Of a stretch of 64,000 bases of DNA, positions 5,301 through 62,495 are shown piece by piece. The stretch is taken from assembly GCA_031283185.1 (NCBI GenBank), contig JAITCH010000009.1, forward strand, positions 127,190 through 191,189, written 5' to 3'. The first letter of the stretch is position 1. Every line of letters begins with the position of its first letter. The stretch comes from Rickettsiales bacterium (GTDB lineage Bacteria; Pseudomonadota; Alphaproteobacteria; Rs-D84). The position numbers and the translations under genes were made by a program. The notes beneath the pieces are model-generated. The model made no database searches. It was not told where the DNA came from and saw nothing but the letters and a program-made list of their open reading frames with translations.

Positions 5301-5313
5301 AAATCAATAATCT

Positions 5314-5465
5314 CAAAAAACATTAGGCGCATCGCGTTTGCGAGGATAAATCAATCAGAATCAAGGGAAGCCGAGGACGAAGTGTATTGTATATACATGC
5401 CGCAGGCTTCCCGCCGATAATCATTGATTTAGACCGCAAACGAAAAATGCGCCTTATGTTTTTTG
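5314..5465 (+). ncRNA. Structured element copy A
   Basis: CAAAAAACATTAGGCGCAT...ATGCGCCTTATGTTTTTTG terminal helix; inner helices GTTTGCG/CGCAAAC, AAATCAAT/ATTGATTT, GGGAAGCC/GGCTTCCC. Confidence 0.75.
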
Positions 5466-20750: not shown

Positions 20751-20862
20751 AATTCCCCGCCAATGGTGGCGGGGTGTCGCGCCGTAGCAAAGCGTAGGCG
20801 GACGGGGTGGTTGGTGCTTACCAACTCACCACCCCAGCCTCGCCCGGCCGTCCAATATCAAG

Positions 20863-20963
20863 GGAAGCCGAGGACGAAGTGTATTGTATATACATGCCGC
20901 AGGCTTCCCGCCGATAGTGGACGGAAATGGCACGCCGGGATGAAAAATTGGCCTTAACATTTT
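20863..20963 (+). repeat. Structured element, 5'-truncated/degenerate copy G
   Basis: atcaagggaagccgaggacgaagtgtattgtatatacatgccgcaggcttcccgccgata shared with copies A and D; 5' arm missing. Confidence 0.65.
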
Positions 20964-20975
20964 TATCCTTTTAAC

Positions 20976-36093: not shown

Positions 36094-36450
36094 AAAAGAT
36101 TACCCCTTTCCTAGGCAGCGCAGAAAAAACCCTGCCCCCGCCGGGGTCCCCGCGAACTTCGTTCGTGGGGTGGCTTTGAGGGGCGGGGCGGTCGCTTTTA
36201 TGCGACCGGGGGTGGGGGTTTAATAATGTCATCCCGGGGCGACCCGTTGGGCCCCACCAGGCGAGCGAAGCGTAGCCAGTGGGAACGGGGGACCCCGGGA
36301 TCTCGCCGAATAAAAATTCCCCTCCTTTTCTTTTGTCATCCCCGCATTTATTTTATTGTCATCCCCGCGGCTTGTCGCGCCGTAGCGAAGCGTAGGCGGA
36401 AGGCGGGGATCTCAAATTGTAAAAAATCCCGCGCCAGCGGGTAATAATCT

Positions 36451-36609
36451 CAAAAAACATTAAGGGTGTCGCAACGCCGAGGAAAAATCATTCAGAACCG
36501 ATGAAAACCGGGGGCGAAGTTGGCTGGTTGCCAATGAGTGTGCCCCCGGCTTTCATCGGCTATCAAGGATTTAGCCCGGCGGGATGAAAAACACCCCTTA
36601 TGTTTTTTG
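36451..36609 (+). ncRNA. Structured element copy B
   Basis: CAAAAAACATTAAGGGTGT...ACACCCCTTATGTTTTTTG; CGCCG/CGGCG; CCGATGAAA.../...TTTCATCGG; CGGGGGC/GCCCCCG. Confidence 0.75.
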
Positions 36610-36627
36610 GCAATAGATTTTTTGTCC

Positions 36628-37416
36628 TTACTTCCCATTCCCAAAAAACTTTTCACGGATAAAGTCCTGCATCGTGAACACACCTATTCTTCCACGAATA
36701 AATTCGATGGCCTGAACCGCACCTTGCGCGAAGTGGCTGCGGCTGTCCGAGCGGTGGGATATTTCAATGCGTTGGTTGGCGTCTTCGAATGCGGCGGTGT
36801 GAGTGCCAAATACTTTGGAAAAACGCGATGATAAAATCTGTAATTGTTCAGGTTTAATTTTTCCTTCGGAATTTCCGACCAGCATTTCGGTTTTATTCGG
36901 CATATTTTTTATGATGGTTTTTGCCATTTCGACTGCTGTTCCGGACGGGCTGTCTGCTTTGTTTGTGTGGTGTTCTTCGACTATGTAAGAATCGAACCCG
37001 CCGATTTTTCCCAAAAATTCTGACAGGGCGTTCAGGGCGAAGTATGTTGCTTGCACGCCCAGGGAATAGTTGCCGGAATATATTAAACCTGTTCCTGCCC
37101 GTCCGACTTTATCTTTCACATATTGCAATTTTTCTGGGTCTGCGAACCAACCGGTTGTTCCGACTACGACCTGGTTGCGGTGTTTTGTGTATAGTTCGAT
37201 ATTTTCCATAAAGGCGTCTGGGAGGGTAAAGTCGACGATGATGGATTCTTGTGCGTGCCAAGGGTCGTTCATCAAAGTTCTTAACGCGGTCAGGTCGTGG
37301 TGCATAGAGGTAGAATCTTTATCAAAGACATTAACATTATAGCCTGCATTCCTTGCCTCGTTGATGAATGCTGTTCCCATTTTACCTGTTCCGACTGCGA
37401 TGATGCTCTTATCCAT
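36628..37416 (-). CDS. dapB: 4-hydroxy-tetrahydrodipicolinate reductase
   Basis: GTGKMGTAF, VVGTTGW, EEHHTNKADSPSGTA. Confidence 0.95.
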   Translation of the reverse strand: MDKSIIAVGTGKMGTAFINEARNAGYNVNVFDKDSTSMHHDLTALRTLMNDPWHAQESIIVDFTLPDAFMENIELYTKHRNQVVVGTTGWFADPEKLQYVKDKVGRAGTGLIYSGNYSLGVQATYFALNALSEFLGKIGGFDSYIVEEHHTNKADSPSGTAVEMAKTIIKNMPNKTEMLVGNSEGKIKPEQLQILSSRFSKVFGTHTAAFEDANQRIEISHRSDSRSHFAQGAVQAIEFIRGRIGVFTMQDFIREKFFGNGK

Positions 37417-40537: not shown

Positions 40538-40996
40538 ACCTCTTTTGGGGATAATTTAACATAAAAACCAACAAAAATCAACTAAATTATAAATAAATTT
40601 ACAAAACTATGCAAATAGTCAAAGTTTTATAAATGTAATTATAACAATATGCAATTTATATCATCGGGAATTGGAGCAAAGATTCCATTATAACTCTACC
40701 CAAATAAATTATTATTCCGCACATATTCACGGATATATAACACTCTGTCCCACCAGTTGTATCTTTTTAGATCCATTTTTTCTAATTATAACAAATGTTT
40801 ATTAGTTCTATTACGGCACACAAAGTGTGCCGTCATCCCCGCGGCTTGTCGCGCCGTAGCGAAGCGTAGGCGGAAGGCGGGGATGTATTGTATAATCCAT
40901 AACGCGTGCGGGAAAGCGAAGCGAACCGCCGATAATAATCCGTAAAAAATCCAGCGGCATCGCAACGACTTGATAAACCACCAAATAAATCTCGTG

Positions 40997-41035
40997 CAAA
41001 AAACATTAGGGGTGTCGCAACGGCGAGGAACAATC
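40997..41035 (+). repeat. Structured element, 5' fragment F, abutting copy C
   Basis: ctcgtgCAAAAAACATTAGGGGTGTCGCAACGGCGAGGAACAATC then a second ctcgtgCAAAAAA. Confidence 0.7.
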
Positions 41036-41045
41036 TAATCTCGTG

Positions 41046-41196
41046 CAAAAAATGTCTGGGCGGCCGCGATGCCGAGGATAGAACGCCGAGTAGCAAGGAA
41101 ACGCGACAACGGAGTATGTGCAAATACTTCTAGGAGCGTTTCCGCCGCTAATCGGCGTTATAGCCCGGCAGACGAAAAGCCGCCCGACATTTTTTG
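41046..41196 (+). ncRNA. Structured element copy C
   Basis: CAAAAAATGTCTGGGCGGC...GCCGCCCGACATTTTTTG; TGCCG/CGGCA; AACGCCGA/TCGGCGTT; GGAAACGC/GCGTTTCC. Confidence 0.75.
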
Positions 41197-41202
41197 TCCT
41201 TA

Positions 41203-44200
41203 TTACAACGCAAGCGTTTCCTGTTTCGGCCCTTCGGCTTCTATGGCTGCTGCGGCTGCTACTTCTTCGTCTTCTGCAACTTGGCGAATACGCCGCACAT
41301 AGGTGCCGGTGCCCAGCGGTATCAAACGCCCAACGATAAGGTTCTCGTTCAAGCCTTCCAGTTTATCGACTTGCCCACGAATTGCGGCATCGGTCAAGAC
41401 GCGCGTAACTTCTTGGAACGCGGCGTTGCTGATGAAACTATCGGAAGAGCGCGAGAGTTTCGAGATACCCATAATGCGATGCTTGTATAAAGCAGGCCGT
41501 CCGCCATTCGCCGCAACGCGCTTGTTTTCAGCGCGCAAAGTGCCGATATTGACTTCCTGTCCGGCGACAAAGGAGGTATCCATCGCGTCGATGATTTCGA
41601 CTTTCCGCATCATTTCGCGGATGATAATTTCGACATGCTTGTTGTTGATGGACACGCCCTGGCTGCGATAGACTTGCTGAATTTGTCCCAGCAAGAATGT
41701 CGCCAACGCTTTACGCCCCAGGATACGAAGGATATCTTCCGGCACGGGATCGCCGCCGACTATTTGCGATGCTTTTTTCACGATGTCGCCGTTCTGCACC
41801 AAGATTGAAAGACCTTTCGGAATGAGATATTCGACAGGTTTTTCTGTTGGGTCTTCTGGCAGGATGCGAACCATAATTTTGGTTTTATGTGAATCGTCGA
41901 TTTCGATTTCGCCGTCTATGTCGGCGAGGACGGCTGGGTTTTTCACATTGCGCGCTTCCAGCAATTCAACGACTCGTGGCAAGCCGCCGGTAATGTCGCT
42001 TGCGCGTTGCACATCAACAGGGATGCGCGCAAGGATGTCGCCGGCCTTGACCTGGTCGCCGTCTTGCACGCCGAGAAGTGCATAGATTGGCATCATATAT
42101 TCCAGTTTGTTTTTACCAAGCGATACGATTTCACCATTTGCATCAACGATTGCGATACCGGGCTTTAATGATTTTTTAGTGATATTTTTCCAGTTGATAA
42201 TTTTCTTAGTGCGCGCGCCGGTGGTGGCGTCTTCGTCCTCACGATAGGATACATTGTCGATCAGGTCGCGGAAGACGACCTTGCCATCTTTTTCAGCGAC
42301 GACGAGGTGGGAATAAGGATCGACTTCTGCGATCTTCGCACCTTTTTCGACTTGGGCTCCATCGCTTACTAGCAGTTCGGATAGGTGCGGCAGTTTAATT
42401 TTGTGAGAGCCTATTTTCACGAATGCTGCGCGTCCCATAACCATATTGCGTCCGCGCGTGTTGACTGCAATGCCTGCGTCGATGATTTCGACTTGACCTT
42501 TTTCTGGCGCGGTAATGAAGTGGTCTTCTCCGCCGCCGGTTGCGACTCCACCGACATGGAATGTGCGGAGTGTTAACTGAGTTCCCGGTTCACCGACTGC
42601 TTGCGCGGCGAGGACGCCGACGCCTTCACCGATTTGGACAGAGATGCCTTTGGACAGGTCGCCGCCATAGCATTTGGCGCACAGCCCTTCGGAATCGCAG
42701 CCGATTGCAGAGCGAACATTGATTTCTTTAATTCCCGCGGCGTCGATGGAGGCGGATATTGCGCGGGTGATAAGTTCGTTGCGTGCCACGATTAATTTGC
42801 CGGATTCGTCTTTAACATCTTCTGCTGCGACGCGTCCGAGGACAACTTTGCCAAGCGGCTGAACCATCACTGCGCCGTCCATAACGGGGCGTTCAGTTAC
42901 GAATTCTGTTGATCCGCAGTCTTCTTCTGTTATGACGACATTCTGCGCGAGCGAGACGAGACGGCGGGTCAAGTATCCTGCGTCAGCGGTTTTCATTGCG
43001 GTATCGGAAAGCCCTTTGCGCGATCCGTGGGTAGATGTAAAGTATTCGGACGCTTTCAATCCTTCCTTAAAGTTGGAAATGATCGGGACTTCAATGATGT
43101 CGTTGTTAGGCTTGGTCATAACGCCGCGCATACCGGCCAACTGCTGGATTTGGGTTTTGGAACCGCGCGCGCCGGAATCGGCCATCAAAGAGATAGAGTT
43201 CCAGTGTCCGGCGACATTGGATTCTTCCATTGCTTTGATGGAAAGCGAACCGACATTAGAAGTAGTCTTCTGCCACAGGTCGACGATTTTATTGTATCGT
43301 TCGCCGTTGGAAAGAAGTCCGTTTTGATATTGCGATTCTATGTCTTTTGCTTTCTTTTGGGCTTCTTCAATAATTTTTGCTTTGCCGGACGGGACGACGA
43401 TATCGTCTTGGCAGATGGATATGCCGGAACGAGCAGCCTGTTCAAAGCCAGTGTTTTTGAGTTGATCGGCAACGATGATCATATCCTTGTCGCCACAGAT
43501 TTCGTATGTGGCGGCGAGAAGTTCTTCAATTTTGCCCTTCTTCATAATTTGGTTGACCAGGTCAAATTTCATACCGGGTTTTTTCGGTAATAGTTCGCCC
43601 AAGATCATACGACCAGCGGTAGTTTTTATATTTTCTACTACTTTCTTGCCTTCCTTATCAAGGCTTGCGCGCCGCGCAACTATCGGGGTATGAAGGGTTA
43701 TGACTTCGCTCTGCAACGCCATTTTAATTTCATCCATTGTGGCAAAGCGGGGCGACTTTTCCGACCATTCGCCATTGACCAGCGAAATGTAATAAACGCC
43801 GAGGACCATATCTTGCGACGGGACTATGACTGGCGATCCGTCCGCCGGATGAAGGATATTGTTGGTGGCGAGCATCAGTGTGCGCGCTTCCAATTGCGCC
43901 TCTAACGAAATCGGAACATGAACGGCCATAGTGTCGCCGTCAAAGTCCGCGTTAAAGCCTTTACAGACCAACGGATGCAACTGAATTGCTTTTCCTTCAA
44001 TCAATATCGGCTCAAATGCCAACAAGGACAATTTATGCAAAGTCGGCGCACGATTGAGCAAGACTGGATGTTGATAAATAACTTTCTGTAAAATATCCCA
44101 AACGATTGGCTCTTGATTTTCGACCATCTTCTTTGCAGTCTTTAATGTGTTTGCTTGATCTTGCGCCAGCAGTTCTGCATAGACGAATAATCTAAACAAT

Positions 44201-45327
44201 TCCAAAGCCATAATTTTCGGCAAACCGACCTGATGCAATTTCAATGTCGGACCTGAAACGATGACGGAACGGCCGGAATAGTCAACGCGCTTTCCAAGTA
44301 AGTTCATACGAAAACGACCAGACTTTCCGCGCAAGGAATCGGATAAAGATTTCAACACATGCTTGTTCTGCGAAACCATTGGCCGTTGTTTGTGGCTGTT
44401 GTCAAACAAGGCATCGACGGCTTCTTGCAGCATACGCTTTTCGTTGCGAACGATGATGTCCGGCGCGCGCATATCAATCAGTCGTTTCAGACGATTATTT
44501 CTAATTATAACTCTGCGATATAAATCATTAAGATCCGAAGTCGCAACATGCCCTGCTTCTAATGGGACAAGCGGGCGAAGTTCCGGCGGCAAAACGGGCA
44601 GTATGTCCATAATCATCCAGGACGGGGACACGCCGGACGACATAAAGTTTTCAACCAGGCGGAGGTGTTTTTGCAAGTTGCGTTTTTTCATATCGGATTT
44701 AACTTCGGCGAGTTCGGTGCGAAGTCTCGCGCGTTCTTCGGTCAAATCAAGGGAAGCGATAATGTTGCGAATACCTTCTGCGCCGATTCCAACGCGGAAA
44801 GAGTCTGCGCCAAATTCTTCAACTTTGCTGTTGTATTCTTCTTCGGAGATAACATCATAAAGTTTCAGATCGGTCAGACCCGGTTCGGACACGATGTAGT
44901 TATCATAGGCGACAACTTGTTCTAATTTTTTCTGCGGCATATTGTTGAGCAGGACGGCGATTTTTCCCTCACGCATAAACCAGTTGTGCACGACTGGCGT
45001 CACAAGTTTGATATGACCCATGCGCTCACGACGAACGGAGGACGCCATCACTTCGACTTTGCAGCGTTCACAAACGACGCCGCGGAATTTTATGCGCTTA
45101 TATTTTCCGCAGGCGCATTCGTAGTCTTTTGTTGGTCCAAAAATTTCTTGGCAGAACAAGCCTTCTGGTTCTGGCTTCATGGAGTGGTAATCAATGGTAT
45201 CGGGCTTTTTGACTTCACCGAACGACCAGGACTTTATTTCGTCCGGGGAAGCGACGGTTATGCGTAAAGCGTCAAACGGATCGCTAGTTTCTATTTGTCC
45301 AAAGAACTTTTGTAACACATTCGCCAT
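41203..45327 (-). CDS. rpoC: RNA polymerase beta' subunit
   Basis: NADFDGDTMAVHVP and full-length RpoC. Confidence 0.99.
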   Translation of the reverse strand: MANVLQKFFGQIETSDPFDALRITVASPDEIKSWSFGEVKKPDTIDYHSMKPEPEGLFCQEIFGPTKDYECACGKYKRIKFRGVVCERCKVEVMASSVRRERMGHIKLVTPVVHNWFMREGKIAVLLNNMPQKKLEQVVAYDNYIVSEPGLTDLKLYDVISEEEYNSKVEEFGADSFRVGIGAEGIRNIIASLDLTEERARLRTELAEVKSDMKKRNLQKHLRLVENFMSSGVSPSWMIMDILPVLPPELRPLVPLEAGHVATSDLNDLYRRVIIRNNRLKRLIDMRAPDIIVRNEKRMLQEAVDALFDNSHKQRPMVSQNKHVLKSLSDSLRGKSGRFRMNLLGKRVDYSGRSVIVSGPTLKLHQVGLPKIMALELFRLFVYAELLAQDQANTLKTAKKMVENQEPIVWDILQKVIYQHPVLLNRAPTLHKLSLLAFEPILIEGKAIQLHPLVCKGFNADFDGDTMAVHVPISLEAQLEARTLMLATNNILHPADGSPVIVPSQDMVLGVYYISLVNGEWSEKSPRFATMDEIKMALQSEVITLHTPIVARRASLDKEGKKVVENIKTTAGRMILGELLPKKPGMKFDLVNQIMKKGKIEELLAATYEICGDKDMIIVADQLKNTGFEQAARSGISICQDDIVVPSGKAKIIEEAQKKAKDIESQYQNGLLSNGERYNKIVDLWQKTTSNVGSLSIKAMEESNVAGHWNSISLMADSGARGSKTQIQQLAGMRGVMTKPNNDIIEVPIISNFKEGLKASEYFTSTHGSRKGLSDTAMKTADAGYLTRRLVSLAQNVVITEEDCGSTEFVTERPVMDGAVMVQPLGKVVLGRVAAEDVKDESGKLIVARNELITRAISASIDAAGIKEINVRSAIGCDSEGLCAKCYGGDLSKGISVQIGEGVGVLAAQAVGEPGTQLTLRTFHVGGVATGGGEDHFITAPEKGQVEIIDAGIAVNTRGRNMVMGRAAFVKIGSHKIKLPHLSELLVSDGAQVEKGAKIAEVDPYSHLVVAEKDGKVVFRDLIDNVSYREDEDATTGARTKKIINWKNITKKSLKPGIAIVDANGEIVSLGKNKLEYMMPIYALLGVQDGDQVKAGDILARIPVDVQRASDITGGLPRVVELLEARNVKNPAVLADIDGEIEIDDSHKTKIMVRILPEDPTEKPVEYLIPKGLSILVQNGDIVKKASQIVGGDPVPEDILRILGRKALATFLLGQIQQVYRSQGVSINNKHVEIIIREMMRKVEIIDAMDTSFVAGQEVNIGTLRAENKRVAANGGRPALYKHRIMGISKLSRSSDSFISNAAFQEVTRVLTDAAIRGQVDKLEGLNENLIVGRLIPLGTGTYVRRIRQVAEDEEVAAAAAIEAEGPKQETLAL

Positions 45328-54561: not shown

Positions 54562-55013
54562 AGACTCTTGTGAATTTGACTTTGTCCGCCTAGGGTATAA
54601 TAGAGCGAATCGGAATGCAAGCAAAAAATCTCATATATAAGCAAAAATATTTTTTATTTATTTTATAAACGGAAGCGGGCGGGGGTTAATAAAGCGGGTG
54701 GGGGTCTCCCGACCCCCACCCGAACATTTTATCACCTTATTATTACCGCACCCACCTACCCCCATCGTCATCCCCAAGTTTTTTTGTCATTCCCGCGAAG
54801 GCGGGAATATTTGTAATAAGTCATTCCCCGGCTTGACCGGGGAATCCCGGCAAAATAAAATTCCCCTCCAAGTTGGAGGGGTGCCTCGGCTCTGCCGAGG
54901 CGGGGTGGTTGAGTTTTTGTTAATCGCACAAAGTCCCCTTCGCTGGCGAAGGGGTGGCACGAAGTGCCGGGGTAGTGGTCATAGTCCCGCGTTAGCGGGT
55001 AATAAATCTCGTG

Positions 55014-55166
55014 CAAAAAATCTTAGCGAAACCGCGACATCGAGGATAAATCGGTCAGAATCAAGGGAAGCCGAGGACAGAGCGTATTGTATATACACGC
55101 CGCAGGCTTCCCGCCGATAATCATTGATTTAGCCCGATGGCCGAAAAGTTTCGCTTAGATTTTTTG
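55014..55166 (+). ncRNA. Structured element copy D
   Basis: CAAAAAATCTTAGCGAAAC...GTTTCGCTTAGATTTTTTG; CATCG/CGATG; AAATCGGT/ATTGATTT (with G-U pairs); GGGAAGCC/GGCTTCCC. Confidence 0.75.
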
Positions 55167-55173
55167 ACCTTAC

Positions 55174-55917
55174 TTATTCGTGCGTGTGGGCTTGGCGATA
55201 TTGGCGCGCATACATAGCCACTAGGGAATCCTGTTGAGCAATCAAGGCCGCAGAATCGGGTTCTTTGGGCAAGGCGGCGTCTTTGAGAAGTTGTTCGCGT
55301 TTGAATTCCCAGTCGCAGACACACCAACCGATTACGCATACTCCGCCTATGAATAGCAAGGCCCATCCGGTTACATTATGATCCCATTGTCTGGCGATTT
55401 TGGGATTTTTCCGGGATGAGCGAGTGGGTTTCACATTAAGTTTTTTTGCCAGTTTGGCGATTTTCTTGTTCTGTGCTTTGATAAGTTTCGCGCCGTTGGG
55501 AAGTGGTTTTTTGACCGGGTTGCATTCTTCATCGCAGATTTTGGCTAATTTTTCAGTCTGACGATCGAGTTTGGCTTTGGCGGCCGCGCCGTTGTCTTTT
55601 ACTGGGCGATAGCCAAGGCGCGCGAAGAGGCGGGCGATCCAGTTGTTCTGGGCTATGATAAAGTTGGCATCGGCGGCTTTTTCTGCATCGGTTGCCGGTG
55701 TGGCGGCAGGGACCAAAGGCTCACAGGCTTCTATAAGGTCGGCGGTCTGTTTGTCAAGTTTTTCCTTACTCATTTTTGCTTTGATACCACCGATTGGGGT
55801 TTTCAAAAAACCCGGCATAATTTTCTCATCATATACGGCGGCAAGTTTATTAGTTTGCTCGTTATATTCACCCAAGGTCATTGGGTTTCCGTAGTTTTTT
55901 TGGTTCATCGGGTCCAT
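55174..55917 (-). CDS. Single-pass membrane protein of unknown function with internally repeated Lys-rich motifs
   Basis: 247 aa; repeated KLDKQTADLIEACEP / KLDRQTEKLAKICDE; one TM segment. Confidence 0.6.
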   Translation of the reverse strand: MDPMNQKNYGNPMTLGEYNEQTNKLAAVYDEKIMPGFLKTPIGGIKAKMSKEKLDKQTADLIEACEPLVPAATPATDAEKAADANFIIAQNNWIARLFARLGYRPVKDNGAAAKAKLDRQTEKLAKICDEECNPVKKPLPNGAKLIKAQNKKIAKLAKKLNVKPTRSSRKNPKIARQWDHNVTGWALLFIGGVCVIGWCVCDWEFKREQLLKDAALPKEPDSAALIAQQDSLVAMYARQYRQAHTHE

Positions 55918-62101: not shown

Positions 62102-62308
62102 CCGCACCAAATTCCCCTTTGCTTGATGTAGTCGCACAAAAGTCCCCTTCGCTGGCGAAGGGGTGTCGCGCCGTAGCGAAGCGTAGGCGGACGGGGTAGT
62201 GGTAATGAAACGACACCAAAGGTGTCGTCATCCCCGCCTCCCCACCCGTCATCCCGGCGAAGGCCGGGATATTTTGTAAAAAATCCCGCGCCAGCGGGTA
62301 ATAAAGTG

Positions 62309-62462
62309 CAAAAAATCTTAGCGACATCGCAATGCCGAGGATAGAACCCCGAGTAGTCGTGAAAAAACGAGGACGGAGTATGCGTGGATACTTCTAGGAG
62401 TTTTTTCACGGCCAATCGGGGTTATAGACCGGCAGGATGAAAAATGTTGCTTAGATTTTTTG
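62309..62462 (+). ncRNA. Structured element copy E
   Basis: CAAAAAATCTTAGCGACAT...ATGTTGCTTAGATTTTTTG; TGCCG/CGGCA; AACCCCGA/TCGGGGTT; CGTGAAAAAAC/GTTTTTTCACG. Confidence 0.75.
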
Positions 62463-62495
62463 ACTATTTCCAATTTTTCATTTATAATGCTTACT

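Follow-up and report, generated by a model that had tools for sequence, protein, structure and literature searches.

The 64,000-nucleotide stretch of DNA analysed here (the window) contains a dispersed hairpin repeat of ~153 nt with the ends CAAAAAA...TTTTTTG, and its copies in the window are 151-160 nt long. We suggest that this element is probably a non-autonomous mobile hairpin repeat that is tied to the lagging-strand template and settles beside stop codons. The window has six copies, five full and one degenerate, all on the + strand (Table 1), and ~70 copies are present in the whole genome, a 930-kb assembly (15 contigs, 97% complete) of a small, termite-gut-type bacterium.

Table 1. Copies of the element, remnants and associated features; positions are those of the window.
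Feature	Position	Strand	Remarks
Copy C, full	41045-41196	+	covariance-model score 164.9 bits; 6 nt between 3' end and rpoC stop
rpoC gene	41203-45327	-	
Full copy between a pilin-like stop (5300) and an ATG (5486)	5313-5465	+	151.5 bits
Copy B, full (subtype with a long apex), preceding the dapB stop	36450-36609	+	114.8 bits
3' remnant (GATTTTTTGTCCTTA) left by an older copy, in the gap from copy B to the dapB stop	36616-36630	+	overlaps the stop codon
Copy D, full	55013-55166	+	144.6 bits; 7 nt between 3' end and stop of gene 55174-55917
Sixth copy, full	62308-62462	+	159.3 bits
Copy G, degenerate	20816-20965	+	61.8 bits; 10 nt between 3' end and stop of the 913-aa gene
Two 5' remnants (CGTAAAAAATCCAGCGGCATCGCAACG..., GTGCAAAAAACATTAGGGGTGTCGCAACGGCGAGG) left by older copies, upstream of copy C	40940-41044	+	
		

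An earlier, sequence-only reading had placed the window copies close to gene ends. The distances that it gave for copies C (6 nt), D (7 nt) and B (18 nt) are borne out by the coordinates, and those for copy G (~12 nt) and for the copy behind the pilin-like stop (13 nt) were essentially right, being 10 nt and 12 nt here. The latter copy ends 20 nt before an ATG that has an AAAGGA ribosome site. At window positions 62457-62485, the 3' end of the sixth copy forms TTGACT-N17-TATAAT, a sigma-70 promoter-like sequence for the right-hand gene.

The proximity to gene ends extends genome-wide, with the correction that it is specifically the 3' end of the element that adjoins genes. With gene ends taken from a simple purpose-made gene caller instead of a standard annotation, the 3' edge lies a median of 7 nt from the next gene and the 5' edge a median of 120 nt from a gene, and the corresponding medians in the sister species G002 are 6 nt and 69 nt. 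The 3' end falls within 10 nt of a gene in 38/60 intergenic copies versus 8.3 ± 2.1 expected, and in 27/42 copies of G002 versus 10.1 ± 2.3 expected, these expectations being for random placement in the same gaps, a null that is internal to occupied gaps because the examination covered stretches around copies. Two control repeat families, D7 and D15, have 1/35 and 1/43 copies within 10 nt of a gene. Of 102 cases, 70 have a convergent stop as their 3' neighbour and 32 a start (p = 0.0002). The strand selected for folding runs antisense to the gene that it adjoins. Where the distance is larger (17-23 nt), this is in some cases because the 3' remnant of an older copy occupies the stop, and at copy B the 18-nt gap to the dapB stop is filled by such a remnant, GATTTTTTGTCCTTA. 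In six copies of this genome the called gene end lies 10-20 nt inside the element, which therefore appears to supply the stop.

The element is a strongly covarying hairpin. For copy C, the z-score of the fold is -10.9 for the + strand and -10.0 for the - strand. Among 22 copies aligned by sequence alone, 24 of the 35 consensus pairs show changes on both sides. Both-side-changed cells number 138 versus 46 in shuffles, and this signal was destroyed in a control in which the pairing partner was slid by 1-3 columns. G.T cells outnumber A.C cells (164 versus 35) in 118 distinct copies from two genomes, a contrast that is partly circular because the alignment was fitted to a model whose scores may favour G.T over A.C; the sequence-only alignment and single-sequence folds point the same way. 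Under DNA parameters, the + strand forms the more stable fold in 111/115 copies. The G.T excess and the stability of the + strand point to the fold of that strand as most likely the selected one.

A MITE would be expected to have a target-site duplication and terminal inverted repeats conserved in sequence. At its ends, the element conserves the terminal CAA...TTG, and the remainder of the terminal helix covaries, keeping its pairing while its sequence changes, also in copies in which the T-run is lost (GGGTTTTG, GGATTTG). T6G is present at 97-100% per column in aligned copies, with A6 at the opposite end and a few variants without the run. The conserved flanks read AATAATC.CGTG-CAAAAAA...TTTTTTG-WC(C/A)TT(A), and the internal loop, GAGGAUAGAA/UUAUAGACC, is near-invariant. 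The strong covariation and the near-invariant loop might also reflect a multicopy structured RNA, trans-acting or ribozyme-like, with the loop as its functional core, and the same core occurs in several copies in a Clostridia MAG. However, an RNA function leaves the replication-locked orientation described below unexplained, and no Rfam family matches the element at the gathering score or at E<=10; we consider this reading quite improbable.

Orientation is uniform on each contig (C5, 11+; C8, 12-; C13, 9+; C14, 5-; C15, 5+) and is broken only on C4, by 2 of its 19 copies. The direction of the element agrees with the sign of the local GC3 skew for 61/70 copies in this genome and for 49/49 in G002. 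Six of the nine copies that run against the skew sign lie at near-zero skew (absolute <0.05), and the other three are in a mixed segment of C4. Of the two odd copies on C4, the one at 80.9 kb borders a segment of inverted skew (~81-109 kb) and the one at 91.7 kb is within it. This segment (C4:81000-109000), whose GC3 skew is opposite to that of the rest of the contig, is apparently an inversion and carries copies in both orientations. On C15, the only 16S rRNA gene runs in the direction of the element. From the GC skew, with the G-rich strand taken as leading, and from the 16S gene, we infer that the folded strand is the lagging-strand template.

The intergenic regions of the window (1-64000) and of contigs C2, C5, C8 and C11-C14 are also dense with other palindromic families (for example AGTCCCCTTCGCTGGCGAAGGGGTG, GTCATTCCCGCGAAGGCGGGAAT, D1 core), which keep one orientation per contig, and C4, C9 and C3 have few other palindromic repeats. 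On the repeat-dense contigs, the other families, including the D7 type, are co-oriented with the element without exception.

The single + orientation that had been reported for the window copies is confirmed by the covariance-model matches there, all of which are +, and a genome-wide check for random position and orientation did not find randomness: adjacency to stops and single orientation both hold. The terminator or stabiliser role that had been suggested does not explain this pattern, since orientation follows replication and not the gene. Several features of the element would fit selection at gene ends for a dedicated bidirectional intrinsic terminator or mRNA 3'-end stabiliser. Such a role is possible because A6 and U6 flank the GC stem on both strands, and a GC stem followed by a U-run is a sequence feature of intrinsic terminators. 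The position of the 3' edge at stop codons would agree with it, as would the finding that a simple hairpin with a T-run lies within 90 nt in only 14/266 element-free genes of this genome. However, the strand under selection runs antisense to the gene beside it, orthologous stops do not conserve the element, 19/60 copies precede starts, and some copies keep the terminal helix and lose the U-run, as does the ...GGATTTG variant at C15:168780, in which the covarying terminal helix is retained. A dedicated function of this kind thus appears unlikely, and bidirectional termination for the neighbouring gene may plausibly be a by-product. A general replacement of ordinary A/T-flanked terminators by the element is not supported, because simple hairpins with a T-run are rare after element-free genes, in G002 (14/195) as in this genome.

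Comparison with G002 indicates that the copies are not fixed features of their loci. Across 119 reciprocal best pairs, the element is at the stop only in this genome in 20 pairs and only in G002 in 13, and it is at both orthologous stops in 3 pairs, where 3.1 are expected by chance. Orthologous stops thus share the element no more often than by chance, so that copies turn over and the element does not belong to particular genes as a conserved component. In aligned orthologous gene ends, the position of the stop is the same whether or not the element is present. In one pair, both stops have TGACAAAAAATCC, where G002 has a short simple hairpin and this genome has the full element. Remnants are found around full copies, 5' remnants upstream and 3' remnants downstream and sometimes both (window 40940-41044; C13:11367, C13:12883 and C8:23480), as if the interior of older copies had given way to newer copies. 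If the element were a KOPS-like polar DNA signal for replication or segregation, maintained by selection, this would account for the co-orientation of the repeat families of this genome with replication, but turnover between sister species, rarity outside one genus and a preference for gene ends would all be unexpected of such a signal, and we regard it as highly unlikely.

We propose a model for the mobile hairpin repeat. When it serves as the lagging-strand template, the + strand would fold as single-stranded DNA. Insertion or copying would take place in a single orientation relative to the replication fork, and would place the 3' edge at or just past a stop codon and, less often, just before a start. 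The model presumes active transposition via a single-stranded DNA intermediate, and targeting and harmlessness may together account for the survival of copies at stop codons; selection against copies that point or lie otherwise could have a part in both patterns. The fold, the preferred strand, the skew-locked orientation in two genomes, the position of the 3' edge, the turnover and the remnants are the observed parts of this model. Against it, inspection of the flanks by eye recognised no target-site duplication, and no transposition event was seen directly. Because several unrelated repeat families share the orientation, it is possible that a general replication-linked process acts on all hairpins, instead of one transposase.

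The element has a narrow distribution. Three sister species carry 36 (G001), 64 (G002) and 29 (G003) copies, and each of 37 other relatives has 0-1 match; these genomes are draft MAGs, and some copies at contig ends may have been counted twice. Matching coordinates identify G002 and G003 as the 'Rickettsiales bacterium' MAGs Cyl330_bin36 and Coa324_bin6, and we take these isolate names to denote termite-gut samples. The same 119 nt of the element is present at the end of C8 and at the start of C13, and the assembly therefore breaks at these repeats. In 85,462 genomes, a scan that may leave out the genome studied here, the exact gapped pattern of the core was found only in two of the sister MAGs and in one Clostridia MAG, the chicken-gut Candidatus Protoclostridium stercorigallinarum. 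The latter has 8 exact core copies, in which the internal loop is the same, the interior is branched and an outer stem is present, and the outer sequence is different. Its core-bearing contigs may be mis-binned, and the core pattern was absent from 150 relatives of this MAG. A search of a phage collection gave no match to the element. A plasmid collection gave one 34-nt Streptomyces match, which lacks the core motif and was judged to be due to chance, and one 40-nt Rhizobium match (E=5). The single match in IMG/VR lies mostly within a coding frame and was judged probably to be due to chance.

No mobiliser was identified for the element. In this genome, a search for reverse transcriptases found none, and no integron integrase scored over the cut-off, TIGR02249 matching only below it, at Xer-like genes. 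The genome encodes two Xer-type recombinases and one RAYT-like Y1 protein with HIH and YIHNNP motifs, the latter on C7 (C7:22095-22295) in a 167-aa open frame beside GGGGTCTCCTGACCCC repeats. The open frame just upstream presumably encodes a ShlB/FhaC-type secretion protein and is apparently cut short.

An integron attC-like recombination site would share with the element the position after stops, the folded strand and the co-orientation. The integrase search, with Xer-type matches only, mostly refutes this reading, the element has no R-box-like consensus, and fixed chromosomal genes, rpoC for instance, are among its neighbours, so that an attC-like site is extremely unlikely. The RAYT-like protein raises the question of a REP/REPIN-type repeat moved by this Y1 HUH protein, as the RAYT/Y1 class acts on hairpin single-stranded DNA (PMC6006769). 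However, no Y1 protein was detected in the three sister species with their 29-64 copies, the element is far longer than the 21-65-nt REPs, and the RAYT locus is flanked by other repeats and not by the element; this assignment is very doubtful.

It is tempting to speculate further that the element represents a new class of single-strand mobile hairpin, with the GAGGAUAGAAC/GUUAUAGACC loop, present in Alphaproteobacteria and in a Clostridia MAG, site-specific at stops on the lagging-strand template and moved by an enzyme still to be found or by the replication machinery itself. We offer this only tentatively and think it rather less than probable. The almost complete coupling of orientation to replication, in a genus whose sister genomes have no detectable Y1 protein, makes the spread of small hairpin repeats and their settling at gene ends directly testable, and the occurrence of the loop motif in a distant phylum is suggestive of a novel recognition factor. 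The repeats can also be used to orient the contigs of such genomes.

Several known systems resemble the element in part. Rickettsia palindromic elements (RPEs) are likewise palindromic dispersed repeats of ~150 nt in a small-genome alphaproteobacterium. RPE insertions are often in frame within genes (PMC10969869), whereas the element is mostly intergenic, beside stops, with a replication-locked orientation and a covarying hairpin. IS200/IS605 elements are biased in orientation to the lagging-strand template (PMC5371812; PMC6006769) and, like the element, have a hairpin on this template and an orientation that follows replication (PMC5371812). The element differs from them in that one long hairpin spans its whole length, with no TnpA detected in the sister species and no recognised target tetranucleotide. 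REP/REPIN sequences with their RAYTs are also dispersed extragenic palindromes with a proposed single-strand mobilisation. Besides being longer, the element has no linked RAYT and lacks the GT[AG]G foot of the 21-65-nt REP hairpin, its boundaries being AATAATC.CGTG/CAAAAAA...TTTTTTG/WCCTTA over ~153 nt. Integron attC sites, in one-orientation arrays, also fold as a single strand, which is antisense to the gene and directly follows its stop. The element differs from them in having no R-box-like consensus, and no integron integrase over the cut-off was found in its genome. ERIC, Correia (CREE), RUP and SPRITE are short intergenic palindromes, some terminator-like and some nesting mutually (PMC10969869). 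The element resembles them in being a short intergenic palindrome. The terminal repeats of these families are kept by sequence, whereas the terminal helix of the element retains its pairing while its sequence changes.
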